DNA of 64,000 nt from an uncultured Pleomorphomonas sp. (GTDB lineage: Bacteria; Pseudomonadota; Alphaproteobacteria; Rhizobiales; Pleomorphomonadaceae). Where the stretch lies: NCBI GenBank assembly GCA_937868725.1, contig CALMMQ010000053.1:1-64000 (forward strand), in the 5' to 3' direction. This document shows, in pieces, positions 16,388-24,671 of the stretch (positions are counted from its first letter, which is position 1; each line of letters starts with the position of its first letter). The position numbers and the translations under genes were made by a program. The notes beneath the pieces are model-generated. The model was not told where the DNA came from. It saw only the letters and a list, made by a program, of their open reading frames with translations, and made no database searches.

Positions 16388-16903
16388 TTAGAACCCGTAC
16401 TCGGGAAAACTCTGGTGGACCATGTGTCGCAGCCTGGCCATCTGGTCTTCGGTGGCCTTGAGCTGGCGTTCGACGTCGGCTTCAGTGGCGTCCAGCGAAC
16501 AGAGCGGCACGGTCGTCGCCGCCAGCCGCGTGAGCCGCGTCTGGAGGTCGGCAACCCGGCCGTCGAGACGCATCGCCTCGGCGCCGCAGCTGTCGCCGCG
16601 CATGGCCAGCAGGCCGAGGCGCTGACGCAAGGGCGACACCGTCGCGTCGGCGGCGTAGTAGCGCACCTGCGACAGATTGCAGCCGTCGGTATGGCGCAAG
16701 ACGTCGAGCCAGCTCGACACCGCCGCGCGCGTCTCGCCGGCCATGGCATCGCCGCCACAGGTCGCCAGCAGCGGCCGGGGCGCCACGCCGATCTGGCGAT
16801 AGCTGCCACCGAGTTGCGCCCGCCCCACCGGTTCGGGCGGCGGCGTCGAAACGCAGGCGGCGAGTGCCACCGCCAGTGCGGCAAGGGCGACTGGGCGCGC
16901 CAT
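16388..16903 (-). CDS. Unknown small lipoprotein
   Basis: The 171-residue product begins ARPVALAALAVALAAC, a lipoprotein signal with the lipobox ALAAC. The mature part has four further cysteines and an alpha-helical, charged C-terminal half (DATEADVERQLKATEDQMAR). No family is recognised. The ATG at 16903 overlaps the stop of the upstream gene by one base (TGATG), which argues for translational coupling. An alternative ATG at 16912 would add three residues. Confidence 0.72.
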   Translation of the reverse strand: MARPVALAALAVALAACVSTPPPEPVGRAQLGGSYRQIGVAPRPLLATCGGDAMAGETRAAVSSWLDVLRHTDGCNLSQVRYYAADATVSPLRQRLGLLAMRGDSCGAEAMRLDGRVADLQTRLTRLAATTVPLCSLDATEADVERQLKATEDQMARLRHMVHQSFPEYGF

Positions 16904-18033
16904 CACGGCCAATCCTTGGCAAGGCCACGCACCAGCCGCAGGAAGGCGGCGAGATCATCGGGCCCGTCGAAAGCTACGGAGCGCACCTCCACCTGCCGCT
17001 TGGGATCGACGAGCACGGCAACGCGCGTGCGGCCGGTGAGCGGCGGCGTTGCTTTGGCGCAATCGGCCTTGAAGGCGGCCCGATTGATGGCCGGTCGGCT
17101 GGCCGGTTCGGCCGGGCTGGCCCTGTCCATCGCTCCGCGCAAATCATCCGCCGGCGCAGCCGGCAAAGTGTTGGCGTCGCCCGCGGCCGCCTTCGTTGCG
17201 GCGTGTGCCGTCTCCAGCCGCTGACGCGTCGCCTCGACAGCCGCGTCGACGCACGCCTCGATGTCGGCGCCCACGTTCTGACTGTCGACGCGCAGACGCG
17301 CCGGGTCGAACGTGGCCAGCGCCTGCACGGCGGCGATGTCGCCTGCGGACGCGCCCGACAGCTCGACGTAGGCGATGAGCGCCGGCTTGCGCGACGCCGT
17401 CTTGCCGGCACCGGCGAGGTAGGCGGCCAGCACGCTGTCGCCGGCCGCCGAGCGATGAGTGAACGGGGTGATGGCCCAGTCGAGCCGCTGCGCCGGTACG
17501 TCGGCCACGAGCTCGAACGCCGACAGCTTGCCCGGTGACGCGTCGTACCAGCGATGCGCCAACGTCCGGTCGGCCGCCGCCAACGGCACCAGTTCGGCCG
17601 CGACAGCATCGCCGACAAGCGGTGTCACGTAAGCTGTCCACAGTGCCGCCCGCAGTGGCGCCAGCGCGTTGTCGACGGCCTTGCCGGTCTCGACCGTCAT
17701 CTCGGCGCCGATGGCGTCGAAGGTCGACTTGAGGATTTGCGCCTGCCCGACCGCCATCATCTCCGGATCGGCCCGGGCCGAGGCCAGCTTGTCCATGGCC
17801 GCCGCCACCAGCAAACGCGGCCCGAGATAGGCGCCGTCCACCTGCCCCTTGAACGCCTTGGCCACCGGCAACGCCGGCGCGCGTTCGGCCAGCGACTGGA
17901 TCAGCGCCCGGTCGAGCGCCACCATGGGGCTGGCAGCAAGCGCCGCGCCAGCCCACAGGGCCAAGCCCACGGCGAAGCCGGCAACCAACGCCAGTTGGTG
18001 ACGACTAATAGCGGCTGTTCTTGAGGTCATCAT
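16903..18033 (-). CDS. Unknown exported protein
   Basis: This 376-residue protein has an N-terminal signal (LALVAGFAVGLALWAGAALAASP) and no later membrane helix, so it should be periplasmic. It is rich in alanine and likely mostly helical. Residues about 265-310 form an Ala/Pro-rich linker. The final 60 residues (RTRVAVLVDPKRQVEVRSVAF) look like a small separate beta-containing domain. No known family is recognised. Its start overlaps the upstream gene by up to 29 bases. Confidence 0.7.
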   Translation of the reverse strand: MMTSRTAAISRHQLALVAGFAVGLALWAGAALAASPMVALDRALIQSLAERAPALPVAKAFKGQVDGAYLGPRLLVAAAMDKLASARADPEMMAVGQAQILKSTFDAIGAEMTVETGKAVDNALAPLRAALWTAYVTPLVGDAVAAELVPLAAADRTLAHRWYDASPGKLSAFELVADVPAQRLDWAITPFTHRSAAGDSVLAAYLAGAGKTASRKPALIAYVELSGASAGDIAAVQALATFDPARLRVDSQNVGADIEACVDAAVEATRQRLETAHAATKAAAGDANTLPAAPADDLRGAMDRASPAEPASRPAINRAAFKADCAKATPPLTGRTRVAVLVDPKRQVEVRSVAFDGPDDLAAFLRLVRGLAKDWP

Positions 18034-18553
18034 TGTAGCCTGCCAGAGATCTTTCCAAATCTGTCATGCCGTTGCTAGCAGCAAGATTACGGCTCTCAGC
18101 CTCGAGCGACACCTCAAGTCCAGATACCGTTCGTTTGATCTCGTCGACCTTCCTTTTGATCTCTCCGATTTTTTCAACCATGTAGCGGAACCGTCGAATC
18201 ATCGGCTCCAGACCGCCACGGCAATGCTGCAAGGCTGTAGTGAACCGCCATTGTGCTTCAGGCGGCACATTCTTCATCTCTTCTTCGAGATCGGCACACT
18301 TGCGGTCACGCTCAGCCAGAACCGCCCCGGTGCTGTCAACCTGGCGCAGAAAAATATCCGCTTGTTGCAGGACATGATGGCCACTGTTGATCTGCGCGCC
18401 GATACTATTGATGCTTTCGCGGGTTTCATCCGTCATCTTGCGATAGTCGGGCAGCATCTCATCGACGATGTTGGCGGCGGCGGCCGGACCGGCCGACAGC
18501 GCGGCCACCACTACCGCTGGCACCAGAGCACGATGCAGGGACTTGAAGCTCAT
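18005..18553 (-). CDS. Unknown exported helical protein
   Basis: The 182-residue product has a clear Sec signal (LVPAVVVAALSAGPAAAANI). The mature part is nearly all helical with a likely coiled coil (MVEKIGEIKRKVDEIKRTVSGLEVSLEAESR) and two cysteines. The ATG at 18553 overlaps the upstream stop by four bases (ATGA) and is preferred over the longer in-frame extension to 18700. No family is recognised. It pairs with the similar upstream gene. Confidence 0.75.
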   Translation of the reverse strand: MSFKSLHRALVPAVVVAALSAGPAAAANIVDEMLPDYRKMTDETRESINSIGAQINSGHHVLQQADIFLRQVDSTGAVLAERDRKCADLEEEMKNVPPEAQWRFTTALQHCRGGLEPMIRRFRYMVEKIGEIKRKVDEIKRTVSGLEVSLEAESRNLAASNGMTDLERSLAGYNDDLKNSRY

Positions 18554-19065
18554 TTGCGGCCCTCCGGGCTGGCAGGACCGCAGGCTTCGACCAGCACGGC
18601 CCGGCTGTCGGTCAGTTCGGCTCGGCGGGCCCCGAGATCGTCGCGGCGCTGGCTGCAGATCTGCAGCGCCTCGGTATCGTCCTTGGCCACGGAGGCGCAC
18701 AGCGCGTCGGCCTCCTTCGCCATCTCATCGAGATGCAACAGCGTCTTGTCGATGTCGGCGATCTCCTTGGTGGCCGCCGCGCAGTCCTTGCGGAAGTCGC
18801 CGTGACGGATGCGGGCGATGCGCAGATCGATCTGGAAGGCCAGCCGCTTCATATCCTCGATGGTGCTCAGCAGTTCCTCGATCTTGGCGTAGAGATCGGC
18901 GTTGCGCGTCGCGCTTTCCTGCTGCAGCTGGCGCACGGCATCGAACTCCGAGCCGGTCGCCGCCGATTGGGCCGCCGCCGGCCAGGCCAGCGCCAGGCAG
19001 CACAACCCGCCAGCCCCGAACAGCCGCGCCAGCATCGTTGGCACGGACAAGCACTTTGAAATCAC
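18550..19065 (-). CDS. Unknown exported coiled-coil protein, first gene of the envelope operon
   Basis: The 171-residue product starts at GTG 19065 behind GGGGGA and has a signal sequence ending near WPAAAQSA. The mature protein is helical and charged, with four cysteines (KDCAAA, ALCASV, QICSQ, EACGP). Its style resembles the next gene, and the two may interact or share origin. No family is recognised. It heads a five-gene chain with overlaps or tiny gaps down to 15639. Confidence 0.73.
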   Translation of the reverse strand: MISKCLSVPTMLARLFGAGGLCCLALAWPAAAQSAATGSEFDAVRQLQQESATRNADLYAKIEELLSTIEDMKRLAFQIDLRIARIRHGDFRKDCAAATKEIADIDKTLLHLDEMAKEADALCASVAKDDTEALQICSQRRDDLGARRAELTDSRAVLVEACGPASPEGRK

Positions 19066-19542: not shown

Positions 19543-21021
19543 TTGCCTGCATTCGACGAGATGCACGGAACGGAAGGGGCGATCCGCTCCGCCTACAGAA
19601 CCATCAAATCCTGGCTCGACGCAAGCGACCCGGACAACCTCAAGCAGTTGCAGAAGGAAGCCGAGTTTCTGTTCCGGCGCGTCGGCATCACCTTCGCCGT
19701 CTACGGCGACGCAGAGGCCGAAGAGCGCATCATCCCCTTCGACATCGTGCCGCGCGTGCTGATGAACAGTGAGTGGACGCTGCTCAACCGTGGCCTGACC
19801 CAGCGCGTCACGGCGCTGAACCGCTTCCTCGCCGACGTCTACGGCGCCGGCGACATCGTCCGGGCCGGCATCGTCCCCGAAGACCTCGTCTATCAGAACC
19901 CGTCGTTCCGCCCCGAGATGGTCGGCGTCAAGCTGCCGAGCGACGTCTACGTCCAGATCGCCGGTATCGACGTCGTGCGCGTCGACGACAAGGACTTCTA
20001 TGTCCTCGAAGACAATGCCCGCACGCCCTCCGGCGTCTCCTACATGCTGGAGAACCGCGACGTGCAGATGCGGCTGTTCCCCGATCTCTTCGCCGAAACA
20101 CGCATTCAGCCGGTCGAGAACTACCCCGACGAGCTTCTGGCCTCGCTGATGTCGCTGGCCCCCAAATCGGCCCCCAAGGACCCGACGGTGGTGCTGATGA
20201 CGCCGGGCCCGCTCAACTCGGCCTATTACGAGCACTCGTTCCTGGCCGACAAGCTCGGCGTCGAACTGGTCGAGGGGCGCGATCTGTTCGTGCTCGACGA
20301 CGTCGTCTACATGCGCACCACCCACGGGCCGCAGCGCGTCGACGTTATCTATCGCCGCATCGACGACGACTTCATCGACCCCATGGTGTTCCGCCCCGAC
20401 TCGGTGCTCGGCGTCCCCGGCCTCGTCTCGGCCTACCGGGCCGGCAACGTCACCCTCGCCAACGCCATCGGCACCGGCGTCGCCGACGACAAGGCCATCT
20501 ACACCTACATGCCGGACATCGTGAAGTTCTACCTCGGCGAGGAACCGATCCTCAAGAACGTGCCGACCTGGCGCTGCCGCGAGCCGGACGCCCTCAAGTA
20601 CGTGCTCGAGCACCTGCCCGAACTGGTGGTCAAGGAAGTGGCCGGCTCGGGCGGCTATGGCATGCTGGTCGGCCCCAAGTCGACCAGGGAGCAGATCGAG
20701 ACCTTCCGCCGCAAGCTCGAAAGCCATCCCGACGGCTTCATCGCCCAGCCGACGCTGGCGCTGTCCACCTCGCCCACCTTCGTCAAGGAGGGCGTGGCGC
20801 CCCGCCACGTCGACCTCAGACCCTTCGTGCTGACCGGCGCCGACAAAGTGCGCATCGTGCCCGGCGGTCTCACCCGCGTCGCCCTCAAGGAAGGTTCGCT
20901 AGTGGTCAATTCCAGCCAGGGCGGCGGCACCAAGGACACCTGGGTCATCGCCGACCCGACGGAGGACGCCACGGCCGGCGCCCCGCACTCCGCCCCGTCG
21001 CAGTCGCAGTCTCAAGGATGA
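19543..21021 (+). CDS. Circularly permuted type-2 ATP-grasp protein, Anbu operon
   Basis: The 492-residue protein matches the circularly permuted ATP-grasp family throughout. The motifs RHVDLRPFVLTG, VPGGLTRVALKEGSLVVNSS and GGGTKDTWV are intact. Such enzymes form peptide or amide bonds with ATP, but the substrate here is unknown. Translation probably begins at TTG 19543, eight bases after GGAG; an in-frame ATG lies at 19561. It is the first of four genes in the standard Anbu order, with gaps of four bases to the next two genes. Confidence 0.92.
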   Translation: MPAFDEMHGTEGAIRSAYRTIKSWLDASDPDNLKQLQKEAEFLFRRVGITFAVYGDAEAEERIIPFDIVPRVLMNSEWTLLNRGLTQRVTALNRFLADVYGAGDIVRAGIVPEDLVYQNPSFRPEMVGVKLPSDVYVQIAGIDVVRVDDKDFYVLEDNARTPSGVSYMLENRDVQMRLFPDLFAETRIQPVENYPDELLASLMSLAPKSAPKDPTVVLMTPGPLNSAYYEHSFLADKLGVELVEGRDLFVLDDVVYMRTTHGPQRVDVIYRRIDDDFIDPMVFRPDSVLGVPGLVSAYRAGNVTLANAIGTGVADDKAIYTYMPDIVKFYLGEEPILKNVPTWRCREPDALKYVLEHLPELVVKEVAGSGGYGMLVGPKSTREQIETFRRKLESHPDGFIAQPTLALSTSPTFVKEGVAPRHVDLRPFVLTGADKVRIVPGGLTRVALKEGSLVVNSSQGGGTKDTWVIADPTEDATAGAPHSAPSQSQSQG

Positions 21022-21025
21022 CGCC

Positions 21026-21967
21026 ATGTTAAGCCGCCACGCCGACAACCTTTACTGGCTCGCCCGCTACGTCGAGCGCGCCGAGAACACCGCGCGGCTG
21101 ATCGAAGCGGCGACGCGCCTGTCCGCCACGCCCGTGCCCGGCTCCGACGGCCGCAACGAGTGGGAGATGGCCGTCGATGGCACCGGCACGCTGGCCAACT
21201 TCCGCGAGGCCTACGACAGCCCGACGCCGCGCAACGTCATCGACCATCTGGTGGTATCGGCCGCCAACCCCTCCTCCATCCGCTCCTGTCTCGACGTCGC
21301 CCGCACCAACGCCCGCTCGGTGCGCACGGCACTGACCATGGACATGTGGGAGACCATCAACTCCGGCTGGATGGAGACGCGCTCGGTCACCACCGCCAAC
21401 CTGACGCGGCAGGAGCTCTCCGACTACCTCGCCAAGGTCAAGGAAATCTCGCTGCGCTTCGACGGTTCGGCCTACCGCACCATGCTGCGCAACGACGCCT
21501 ACTACTTCCTGCGCCTCGGCACCTACATCGAGCGGGCCGACTTCACCGCCCGCGTGCTGGCGCTCAAGGCCCACGTCCTCGACCCCAAGCGGCCGTCGTC
21601 GGGGGGCTCGTTCGACTATTTCCAGTGGTCCTGGATCCTGCGTTCGGTGTCGGCGCTCACCTCCTACCACTGGGTTTATCGCGACAACCTCAAGCCCAAT
21701 CTGGTGGCTGAGTTCCTCATCCTCAGGGCCGAGATGCCACGCTCGCTGGTGTCGTGCTACGAGAACGTGTCGCTGTTTCTCGACAGCCTGTCGCGCGACT
21801 ATGGCCGCCAGGGCCCCAGCCAGCGCCAGGCCCGCACCATGCTGAGCCAGCTGCAGGGCACCACGCTCGACGAGCTGTTCGGCGTCGGTCTCGGCACCTA
21901 TCTCGACGGCTTCATGGCCGACAACGCCAATCTCGGCGGCATGATCGCCGATCAGTACCTGGGGTGA
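21026..21967 (+). CDS. Alpha-E domain protein, Anbu operon
   Basis: The 313-residue all-helical protein starts LSRHADNLYWLARYVERAENTARL, the signature of the alpha-E family (DUF403). It contains the repeated LRNDAYYFLRLGTYIERADFTARVL element. It has no known catalytic residues and is always found with ATP-grasp and transglutaminase partners. The gene begins four bases after the ATP-grasp stop and ends four bases before the transglutaminase-like gene. Confidence 0.93.
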   Translation: MLSRHADNLYWLARYVERAENTARLIEAATRLSATPVPGSDGRNEWEMAVDGTGTLANFREAYDSPTPRNVIDHLVVSAANPSSIRSCLDVARTNARSVRTALTMDMWETINSGWMETRSVTTANLTRQELSDYLAKVKEISLRFDGSAYRTMLRNDAYYFLRLGTYIERADFTARVLALKAHVLDPKRPSSGGSFDYFQWSWILRSVSALTSYHWVYRDNLKPNLVAEFLILRAEMPRSLVSCYENVSLFLDSLSRDYGRQGPSQRQARTMLSQLQGTTLDELFGVGLGTYLDGFMADNANLGGMIADQYLG

Positions 21968-21971
21968 CGGT

Positions 21972-22802
21972 ATGCGTCTCAGAATCCGCCACACCCTGAC
22001 CGCTCGTTTCGACGAGCCCGTCAGCCTCGTCCAGCGCTCGCTGCGCATGAGCCCGCGCACCTTCAACGGCCAGTACGTGCGCGCCTGGCGCATCGAAGTC
22101 GACCACGACTGCCGCCAGAACCGTTCGACCGACGCCTTCGGCAACACCACCCACGAGTTCACGCTCACCGGCGCCATCCGCGCCGTATCCATCGTGGCGG
22201 CCGGCGAAGTGGAGGTCGACGACACCGCCGGCGTGCTCAAGGGCACGCTCGGCGACCGCATGCCGCCAGCCGTCTACCTGCGCGAGACGCCGGCCACCGC
22301 CCTCGACGCCGACATCCGCGCGCTGGCCCGCGCCGCCCGCACCGGCAGCGACGGCAACGACCTCGACGCCTGCCACCGGCTGATGCACCTCATGCACGAG
22401 CGCATCGAACCGCAACCCGCCAGCCTCGACGAGCGCGTCAACGTCGGTGGCGCCACCGCCGCCGCATGCCTTGCCGCCGGCCAGGGCACACCGACGGCTA
22501 TCGCCCATCTGTTTGTCGCCGCTGCCCGCAGCCTGCTGATTCCGGCTCGCTACGTCTCCGGCTACATCTGTCGTGGCAGCGACCGCGACGCCGGCGATGC
22601 CGCCCATGCCTGGGCCGAAGCGCTCATTCCCGGCCTCGGCTGGGTCGGCTTCGATGCCGAGAACGACACCTGCCCAACCGACGCCTACATCCGTGTCGCC
22701 AGCGCCCTCGACCAATCGGGCGGGGCTTTCGTGCGCGGTGCCGACCGCGGCGGTCCGCCGACGCTGGAGGTCGCCATCACGGCCGAGCCGCTGGCCGTCT
22801 GA
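21972..22802 (+). CDS. Transglutaminase-like protein lacking the catalytic cysteine, Anbu operon
   Basis: The 276-residue protein has the bacterial transglutaminase N-terminal beta domain and core fold. The stretch AHLFVAAARSLLIPARYVSG, the histidine in HAWAEAL and the acidic residue in GWVGFDAEND are present. Where active relatives read GVCQDFAH, this protein reads GTPTAIAH, so the nucleophilic cysteine is replaced by proline. The nearest cysteine is eight residues earlier (AAACLAAG) and not in register. It may act as a binding subunit rather than a protease. Position and spacing place it in the Anbu operon. Confidence 0.9.
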   Translation: MRLRIRHTLTARFDEPVSLVQRSLRMSPRTFNGQYVRAWRIEVDHDCRQNRSTDAFGNTTHEFTLTGAIRAVSIVAAGEVEVDDTAGVLKGTLGDRMPPAVYLRETPATALDADIRALARAARTGSDGNDLDACHRLMHLMHERIEPQPASLDERVNVGGATAAACLAAGQGTPTAIAHLFVAAARSLLIPARYVSGYICRGSDRDAGDAAHAWAEALIPGLGWVGFDAENDTCPTDAYIRVASALDQSGGAFVRGADRGGPPTLEVAITAEPLAV

Positions 22803-22965: not shown

Positions 22966-23706
22966 ATGACTTATTGCGTTGGTATCCTCGTCAAGGAAGG
23001 CTTGACGATGATCGCCGATACCCGCACCAACGCCGGCCTCGACAACGTGTCGCAATACAAGAAGCTGCACATCTTCGAGCGTCCCGGCGACCGCATGGTG
23101 GCCGTCGCCACCGCCGGCAATCTGGCCATCACCCAGGCGGTGCTGTCGCTGCTCAATGAGGGCATCGAGGACAAGGAGACCGGCCGCAGCGAGACCATCT
23201 GGACGCAGCCGTCGATGTTCAAGACGGCGCAACTGGTCGGCCGCGCCATCCGCGAGGTCTACCGCATCGACGGCGAAGCGCTCGAACAGTCCAACGCCGG
23301 TTTCGAGGTGACCATGCTGGTCGGCGGTCAGGTGGCCAAGGGCCGCCTGCGCCTGTTCATGATCTACCGCCAGGGCAACTTCATCGAGGCCACCGAGGAC
23401 ACGCCGTTCCTGCAGATCGGCGAGCACAAGTACGGCAAGCCGATCCTCGACCGCGCCATCACCTTCACCACCGACCTGGTGCAGTCGACCAAGCTGGCGC
23501 TGATCTCGATGGATTCGACCATGCGGTCCAACCTCGGCGTCGGCATGCCCATCGACCTGGTGACGGTCAAGCGCGACGCCATCGCCCACGACATCCTGCA
23601 CCGCATCGAGCCGGGTGAACCCTATTTCCACGACCTGCGCGAGCGCTGGAGCGCCGCCCTGCGCGCCGCCCACCGCGCCATCCCCGACCCGCCCTACAAG
23701 CCGTGA
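22966..23706 (+). CDS. Anbu (BPH-like) ancestral proteasome beta-type peptidase
   Basis: The 246-residue cytosolic protein begins MTYCVGILVKEG, with threonine exposed after removal of methionine as in proteasome and HslV beta subunits. The conserved aspartate in IADTRTNAG and lysine in QYKKLH lie at the expected distances (17 and 32 from Thr1). The ATG at 22966 is chosen because it puts Thr at the N-terminus and has GGAGG upstream. Anbu forms open ring or helical assemblies in relatives, and its substrate is unknown. It follows the transglutaminase-like gene by 163 bases. Confidence 0.94.
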   Translation: MTYCVGILVKEGLTMIADTRTNAGLDNVSQYKKLHIFERPGDRMVAVATAGNLAITQAVLSLLNEGIEDKETGRSETIWTQPSMFKTAQLVGRAIREVYRIDGEALEQSNAGFEVTMLVGGQVAKGRLRLFMIYRQGNFIEATEDTPFLQIGEHKYGKPILDRAITFTTDLVQSTKLALISMDSTMRSNLGVGMPIDLVTVKRDAIAHDILHRIEPGEPYFHDLRERWSAALRAAHRAIPDPPYKP

Positions 23707-23796: not shown

Positions 23797-24594
23797 TCAC
23801 CGCGCCGCCACGGCCACCCCGTCGGGATTGACGACGCTGGCGGCGAGGAAGACGCGGAATTCTTCTTCGGAGCCGTGGAAGACGTTGCGGTCGGCGTTGC
23901 CGCGGATGCCCCGCACCGCGCCGGTCGAGGTGTATTGCCAGAAGTGCCAGCGGCGGTTGCCATACTTCTCGTGCGGTTCGGCCGCCACCGACCGCACCCA
24001 CAGGGGATAGCTCTCGAAGGCCCCGACCAGCCGGTCGCGGTAGAAATCGACCGAGGTGTAGATGACCGGCCGCTTGCCGTAATAGGCTTGCACCGTGTCG
24101 AGGAAGGTCTGGATGTCGGCGTGGAGTTCGTCGGCCGGCGGCCGCTTGGTGCAGGTCGGCGAGGTCGGCGTCCACTCGATGTCGAGCACCGGCGGCAGGG
24201 CGTTCGCATCACGAGGCACGTTGCGAATGTACCAGGCCGCCTGCTCGGCGCCGGTGCGGCAATGGTACCAGAAGTGATAGGCGCCGCGCAGCACGCCGGC
24301 CCGGGCCGCGCCGTCGAAGTTGTCGCGGAAGCGCTCGTCCACCCGGTCGCCACCCTCGGTGGCCTTGATCCAGGCGAAGCGGATGTTGTCGTGCGCCACC
24401 GCCGGCCAGTCGACCGCCGCCTGGAAGTACGACACGTCGATGCCCTCGATGGCCTTGGCCGACGGCTGGCGGATCTCGAAGGTCGAGCGCGTCGGCGCGT
24501 GCCGTACCGGCTCGTCGTAGTCGAGCGACGAACAGCCGGCCAGAACCAGCGCCAGCAACCCCATCGCGCCCCGGCGCATCGTAGAAAGATCCAT
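23797..24594 (-). CDS. GH25 family muramidase lipoprotein
   Basis: The 265-residue product carries a lipoprotein signal (GLLALVLAGC). The glycoside hydrolase 25 domain spans about residues 45-250. GIDVSYFQ supplies the first catalytic-site aspartate and VLDIEW the DxE pair. AYHFWYHCRTGAEQAAWY is another hallmark. It should cleave the glycan strands of peptidoglycan or bind them from the outer membrane. The ATG at 24594 follows a G-rich stretch, with later in-frame ATGs possible. Confidence 0.9.
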   Translation of the reverse strand: MDLSTMRRGAMGLLALVLAGCSSLDYDEPVRHAPTRSTFEIRQPSAKAIEGIDVSYFQAAVDWPAVAHDNIRFAWIKATEGGDRVDERFRDNFDGAARAGVLRGAYHFWYHCRTGAEQAAWYIRNVPRDANALPPVLDIEWTPTSPTCTKRPPADELHADIQTFLDTVQAYYGKRPVIYTSVDFYRDRLVGAFESYPLWVRSVAAEPHEKYGNRRWHFWQYTSTGAVRGIRGNADRNVFHGSEEEFRVFLAASVVNPDGVAVAAR

Positions 24595-24671
24595 CACCGC
24601 CCCGACTGTCATTGTCCCGGCGGTATGGAATCACGAAACGGGGTGATTTGGCCAGAGGCCACAACCGCCGA

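Follow-up and report, generated by a model that had tools for sequence, protein, structure and literature searches.

Recurrent loss of the catalytic cysteine in the transglutaminase-like protein of the Anbu operon in Pleomorphomonas and related genomes

Genes for an ATP-grasp protein, an alpha-E protein, a transglutaminase-like protein (TG) and the proteasome/HslV homologue Anbu form a known operon, and the accessible portions of two reports (PMC6376114, PMC5666114) describe the hypotheses on its function as experimentally unconfirmed. With Anbu as bait, a pull-down in Yersinia bercovieri yielded no specific interaction among the co-expressed operon proteins, according to excerpts of the former (PMC6376114); available text of the latter reports upregulation of Anbu in Pseudomonas putida under nitrogen limitation (PMC5666114). 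In Burkholderia cenocepacia, a cluster of DUF404/407, DUF403, TG and large TG genes is NtrC-dependent (PMC5491218, accessible part). Both cluster types may serve nitrogen-limited cells, which fits a shared pathway without proving it. We found no report of cysteine loss in the TG of an Anbu operon in the accessible text of the open-access literature searched; Iyer 2009, cited by others for the operon scheme, lies outside that literature.

RloB, from the rlo operon of Pseudomonas aeruginosa, is an inactive TG whose gene lies beside ATP-grasp and peptidase genes, and mutations in RloB rescue peptidase mutants; it has seven transmembrane helices, a TG domain predicted to be periplasmic and an aspartic peptidase (PMC12239564, available portions), whereas the TG described here has two TG-type domains and a proteasome homologue as its neighbour. 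The TG domain of budding yeast Cyk3 also keeps His and Asp while missing the catalytic Cys, and stimulates the chitin synthase Chs2, but Cyk3 is a eukaryotic cytokinesis protein with an unrelated gene context (PMC4758748, in excerpt). RloB sets a precedent for an inactive TG encoded next to an ATP-grasp protein and a peptidase, and the Cys-less TG of the Anbu operon can be regarded as a variant of that arrangement.

We analyzed a stretch of 64,000 nucleotides from an uncultured Pleomorphomonas sp. (contig CALMMQ010000053.1; hereafter the window), which carries an Anbu operon with ATP-grasp, alpha-E, TG and Anbu genes in this order on one strand:

19543..21021, forward strand: circularly permuted ATP-grasp protein, first gene (PF14403, 553 bits; PF04174, 514.8 bits); start codon as in the list of open reading frames (ORFs), the true start may be internal
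21026..21967, forward strand: alpha-E protein, second gene (PF04168, 301.5 bits)
21972..22802, forward strand: TG-like protein without catalytic Cys, third gene, 276 aa, ATG start
22467..22469, forward strand: codon of Cys166 (AAACLAAG), candidate rescue cysteine, not conserved
22491..22493, forward strand: codon of Pro174, CCG, in the column of the nucleophile (motif GTPTAIAHLF)
22605..22607, forward strand: His212 codon CAT, triad histidine kept
22653..22655, forward strand: Asp228 codon GAT, triad aspartate kept
22671..22673, forward strand: codon of Cys234 (CPTD motif), kept in most, not all, Cys-less relatives
22966..23706, forward strand: fourth gene, encoding the proteasome/HslV homologue Anbu, start MTYCVGI (PF00227, 23.7 bits, scored on the longer ORF from 22906)

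Just downstream, a glycosyl hydrolase family 25 protein is encoded at 23797-24612 on the reverse strand, and two upstream ORFs (16903-18033 and 18550-19065, reverse strand) had no Pfam match at E 0.001. The sigma-54 promoter pattern, with one mismatch allowed, gave 3 hits in the window vs 2.8 expected, none of them just upstream of the operon on the operon strand.

The TG ORF (21972-22802) matched the Pfam families Bact_transglu_N (68.2 bits) and Transglut_core (61.9 bits), with domains at residues 3-81 and 124-229 and cut-offs of 23 (PF01841) and 27 (PF08379); by sequence profile (PF01841 with PF08379), and also by fold, it belongs to the TG-like superfamily. NCBIfam returned no family for it at E 0.001, and the other fold matches from VIA-align (human TGs, LapG, TgpA) were informative only as to the shared TG fold. 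Outside the two Pfam domains of this 276-aa protein the model contains strands and short helices and would leave no room for the seven fused transmembrane helices of the RloB type. The modeled helix of residues 174-187 starts at Pro174, and the catalytic Cys with which the core helix opens in an active Cys-His-Asp transglutaminase/protease is absent, while His and Asp of the triad are present. The sequence-only reading had claimed that proline replaces the nucleophile and that the histidine and acidic positions are kept; the codons at the Cys column (CCG, Pro174), at His212 and at Asp228 bear this out. Its further claim, that the three other operon genes look intact, agreed with the ATP-grasp (553 bits) and alpha-E (301.5 bits) matches and with the catalytic Thr1, Asp17 and Lys32 present in Anbu. 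TGs of Anbu operons with intact triads (e.g., the Brevundimonas and Paracoccus loci) are alike in gene order, downstream Anbu and TG profile, whereas the window TG has Pro for Cys and differs as well at the neighbouring motif residues V and Q and at further conserved columns. The putative cysteine protease 3isr from Cytophaga hutchinsonii, 18% identical to the window TG, keeps the Cys in GVCRDFAHL. An assembly error is an unlikely source of the missing Cys, because the loss is common to 19 other genomes of family f1, which we take to be Pleomorphomonadaceae.

The window TG was searched in 100 relatives (match in 73), in 397 genomes of the order (match in 282 at 1e-28), in two families (matches in 14/14 and 35/61 genomes) and in named genomes (80 of 135 loci kept). 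Sampling part of the matching genomes, dropping duplicate sequences and leaving out second-cluster loci L331-L334, we obtained 250 distinct TGs of the window type, of which 85 had no Cys at the Cys column and 165 were Cys/His/Asp (CHD). The Cys-less states were AHD (34), PHD (17), PAD (11), SHD (6), VHD, THD and GHD (3 each), SRD (2), and one each of PWD, ADD, PDD, TCD, YHD and a fragment carrying P but lacking the His column. Since so many different letters replace Cys (Ala, Pro, Ser, Gly, Val, Thr, Tyr), the site has drifted. His was missing in 17 Cys-less rows vs 0/165 intact rows, and kept in 67/84 readable Cys-less rows; Asp was replaced in 0/250 rows, one row being gapped there. This pattern of loss fits an order in which Cys would have gone first and His later.

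The sequence-only reading had set against its own proposal a change shared by all close relatives together with retained activity; the sharing is real, as all 20 f1 genomes examined, the window included, were without Cys (4 PHD, 11 PAD, 1 fragment with P, 1 PWD, 2 SRD, 1 AHD). Among 13 other genomes of the window's genus, 11 had Ala at the His column, G007 had His, and G011 was unreadable; the nearest named loci to the window TG are Pleomorphomonas, and several same-genus genomes carry a TG gene identical to those of these named loci. Cys was likewise absent from all eight Kaistia-group loci, of which six are titled Kaistia, one Mesorhizobium and one Bosea MAG. In another family, f6, insertions in the motif loop make the residue assigned to the Cys column a nominal one; even so, the f6 Cys-less TGs had no Cys anywhere in the motif stretch. 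Two full-length TGs (G389 and G218; L311 and L313) with the motif GVGQDLAH contain zero cysteines and keep most other motif residues; they are close to single-site losses and lend themselves to comparison with near relatives whose TG is intact. In L160 and L161 (G039 and G084), Cys and His were both replaced (A/D/D and P/D/D), and the match to the window TG split in two pieces inside one ORF of ~340 aa, as though a stretch of low similarity separated them.

Cysteine loss happened repeatedly, and the gene was kept. A midpoint-rooted TG tree built with the motif columns removed contained 12 clades purely of Cys-less rows and required at least 10 changes. A FastTree phylogeny of ATP-grasp plus alpha-E from 98 genomes (those scored and having both genes; FastTree warned of long branches) required at least 9 changes in Cys state, and an IQ-TREE phylogeny of 56 of these genomes at least 7. 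On the 56-genome partner-gene tree, AU tests rejected the hypothesis that the Cys-less rows form one clade (p 3.0e-6), and likewise a grouping of family f1 with the Kaistia group (p 4e-4), with the weakness that the tested groups were named once the first trees had been seen.

We then compared selection on the TG genes, using a Nei-Gojobori count over pairs with dS 0.1-1.5 in these GC-rich genes. Median dN/dS was 0.109 for the Pleomorphomonas TGs without Cys and His, 0.225 for the Kaistia group, 0.077 and 0.178 for two Cys-less groups of three, and 0.407 for the f6 Cys-less TGs; the intact sets gave 0.243, 0.268 and 0.470. The Cys-less TG genes stay under purifying selection. In every group, intact ones included, the TG median exceeded those of alpha-E and ATP-grasp, and the ratio of TG dN to alpha-E dN was 1.9-2.5 in the three larger Cys-less groups, 1.5-2.6 in the intact groups and 4.7-5 in the two smallest Cys-less groups, in which some relaxation is possible. 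Column conservation was compared for the 55 of 85 Cys-less TGs that scored above 250 bits. Intact TGs have 48 columns conserved at 95% or more, and 14 of these dropped under 70% in Cys-less TGs (residues 9, 11, 13, 22, 82, 173-175, 194, 210, 245, 253, 263 and 267), whereas other columns, including R186, R193, G197, W214, E216, W224, D228, R241 and D247, stayed at ≥98% (weighted). Release of one set of columns with another held is what would be expected of a protein that loses catalysis and keeps a binding face, and the released residues probably line the active-site cleft. In the same test, the partners had 0/57 (Anbu), 3/59 (alpha-E) and 5/188 (ATP-grasp) columns under 70%, or 8/304 together, and none of the three partners is TG-like.

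Thr1, Asp17 and Lys32 of Anbu were found in 41/41 readable rows from Cys-less genomes. In a forty-second row (G015:C43:14662-15392), where the TG is S/R/D, the Anbu match is divided into two pieces that overlap and contains a single TGA; the gene is perhaps broken, or this is a draft error. A separate observation concerns G409 of f6, in which Anbu starts MSYCVG with Ser for Thr1, the single exception in 124 intact-TG rows. Within the window's genus, Anbu was kept in 13/13 other genomes at 88-93% identity, while the window TG was 56-59% identical to most TGs of the genus; in 12 of the 13 (all but G007) Anbu stood apart from the TG gene, at 19-44 kb in six same-contig genomes and on separate contigs in six. 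In these 12 (G001-G006, G008-G013), Anbu (91-93% identical to window Anbu) has parted from the ATP-grasp, alpha-E and TG genes, and the TG His was also lost (11 read, G011 unreadable). Outside f6, Anbu occurred in 51/51 Cys-less genomes. In f6 it occurred in 7/61 genomes, which are exactly those carrying an intact TG, and in 0/28 Cys-less ones; ATP-grasp and alpha-E lay beside the TG wherever enough flank was read, apart from L265 (alpha-E only). The f6 Cys-less TGs group in a clade of their own and are possibly not orthologues of the operon TG. Anbu can thus be kept without an active TG, and a Cys-less TG without Anbu.

The genome of the window has two more Transglut_core proteins, both on contig C101. 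A 306-aa TG there adjoins an ATP-grasp-alpha-E fusion of 846 aa (471 and 200 bits), and the cluster includes a TG-DUF2126 protein whose DUF2126 domain (a putative amidoligase in Pfam) scored 1295 bits. In 25 Cys-less genomes with one or both of these TG domains read, 30/30 second-cluster TG domains have the complete Cys-His-Asp triad. G004 has a DUF2126 match without profile positions 266-325 and an intact DUF2126-side TG motif, and a close small TG paralogue was looked for and not found in that genome; full compensation by the second cluster is thus not universal.

Loss of the nucleophile could mean that the TG gene is a decaying relic heading to pseudogene status, which we judge quite unlikely. 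The low TG identity within the genus beside the high identity of Anbu, the conserved columns lost, the raised TG dN relative to alpha-E in the two small groups and a TG gene in two frames in the draft genome G011 all speak for decay; against it stand a dN/dS of 0.06-0.24 across the 11 Pleomorphomonas genomes without Cys and His, presence of the gene in 20/20 family genomes, and the ≥98% conservation of R186, R193, W214, E216, W224, R241 and D247 among Cys-less rows. There is also little probability that the protein is still an enzyme, with Cys234, or a Ser/Thr at or beside position 174, as the nucleophile acting with His212 and Asp228. Cys234 lies six residues C-terminal of Asp228 and is enriched in Cys-less TGs (weighted conservation 0.94 vs 0.70 in intact ones, uncorrected for kinship, which lessens its weight), and the retention of His in most readable Cys-less rows would suit such an enzyme. 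Yet Cys234, found in 78/85 Cys-less rows, is another residue in six and a gap in one, two Cys-less TGs contain no cysteine at all, residues 173-175 vary, and His itself is gone in 17 rows. The adjacent Pro235 (residues 234-235, window positions 22671-22676) had a weighted conservation of 0.92 in Cys-less vs 0.65 in intact rows, again uncorrected for kinship. The sequence-only reading had asked whether a cysteine such as that of AAACLAAG can reach the site; Cys166 was present in 1/19 family rows and 4/85 Cys-less rows, and we rejected it as a conserved solution. A search of the Cys-less TG rows for a general substitute cysteine found none.

A further alternative touches the link to the second cluster, namely that co-occurrence of DUF2126 and Cys loss only marks shared lineages or genome types, the second cluster being unrelated; this seems to us rather unlikely. 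Scoring of DUF2126 covered the 100 relatives, the 61 genomes of f6 and the 397 of the order, with G408 and 70 loci not assigned to a genome set aside (6 Cys-less and 65 intact in all). Among the 179 genomes of known TG state, it was present in 79/79 Cys-less vs 53/100 intact ones (Fisher p 2e-15, kinship uncorrected). For shared lineages speak the commonness of DUF2126 in the order (221/397 genomes), the uneven sampling, with f6 sampled deeper after Cys-less TGs turned up there, and an independent-pairs test that was not significant (median p 0.25 and 0.5), with few informative pairs, of which a mean of 2.9/7 and 1.8/8 agreed and none disagreed. What tells against them is that the cluster was missing in 0/79 Cys-less vs 47/100 intact genomes, that placing an equal number of losses at random on the two trees reproduced the all-DUF2126 outcome in 27 and 35 of 20000 draws, and that f6 itself is split, its seven genomes with intact TG and Anbu including six without DUF2126, and its 28 Cys-less genomes having DUF2126 and no Anbu.

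On balance, we consider it somewhat probable that the Cys-less TG is a folded, catalytically dead subunit kept for binding, its chemistry being dispensable or supplied in trans. Inactivity is here deduced from the missing nucleophile; the bound substrate or partner and any compensation in trans are likewise inferred. The TG would have lost its cysteine chemistry and retained its fold, and what would keep the dead protein in place is its continued ability to bind a substrate or partner for the amide-ligase part of the pathway (ATP-grasp/alpha-E). The second, Anbu-less cluster (TG paralogue, ATP-grasp-alpha-E fusion and TG-DUF2126 protein), which keeps intact TG sites, may have made the operon TG redundant or replaced it. 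This reading draws on the recurrence of Cys loss, the drift of the site, loss of His only in Cys-less rows, purifying selection, intact partner genes, the lack of a general substitute cysteine, the DUF2126 co-occurrence, the intact second-cluster triads and the retention of Anbu outside f6. Counted against it are the non-significant pairs test, the raised TG dN in two small groups, the f6 TGs without Anbu, the G004 cluster and the Anbu pull-down in Yersinia bercovieri. The sequence-only reading had suggested either a non-enzymatic binding role or a shift of activity to a partner. Family-wide and recurrent Cys loss, purifying selection and the lack of a general substitute cysteine favor the former; the latter is unsupported inside the operon, where nearly all conserved partner columns are retained and no partner is TG-like, and is plausible elsewhere in the genome, in the second TG cluster with its intact triads.

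We also put forward, tentatively and as possible rather than probable, that the Anbu operon and the DUF2126 cluster each supply half of a single pathway. In genomes that have the second cluster, the Anbu-side TG would then be free to give up catalysis and become a dedicated non-catalytic subunit of the ATP-grasp/alpha-E ligase, with the chemistry supplied in trans; if this is true, the dead subunits, some of them cysteine-free, would mark the substrate-binding face. Repeated loss of the cysteine in a gene under selection suggests that the lasting job of the operon can be done without that reaction in cis, and speaks against models that assign the making or cutting of a tag for Anbu to the TG of the operon itself. 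The link to the second cluster points to a concrete partner for the Cys-less TG.
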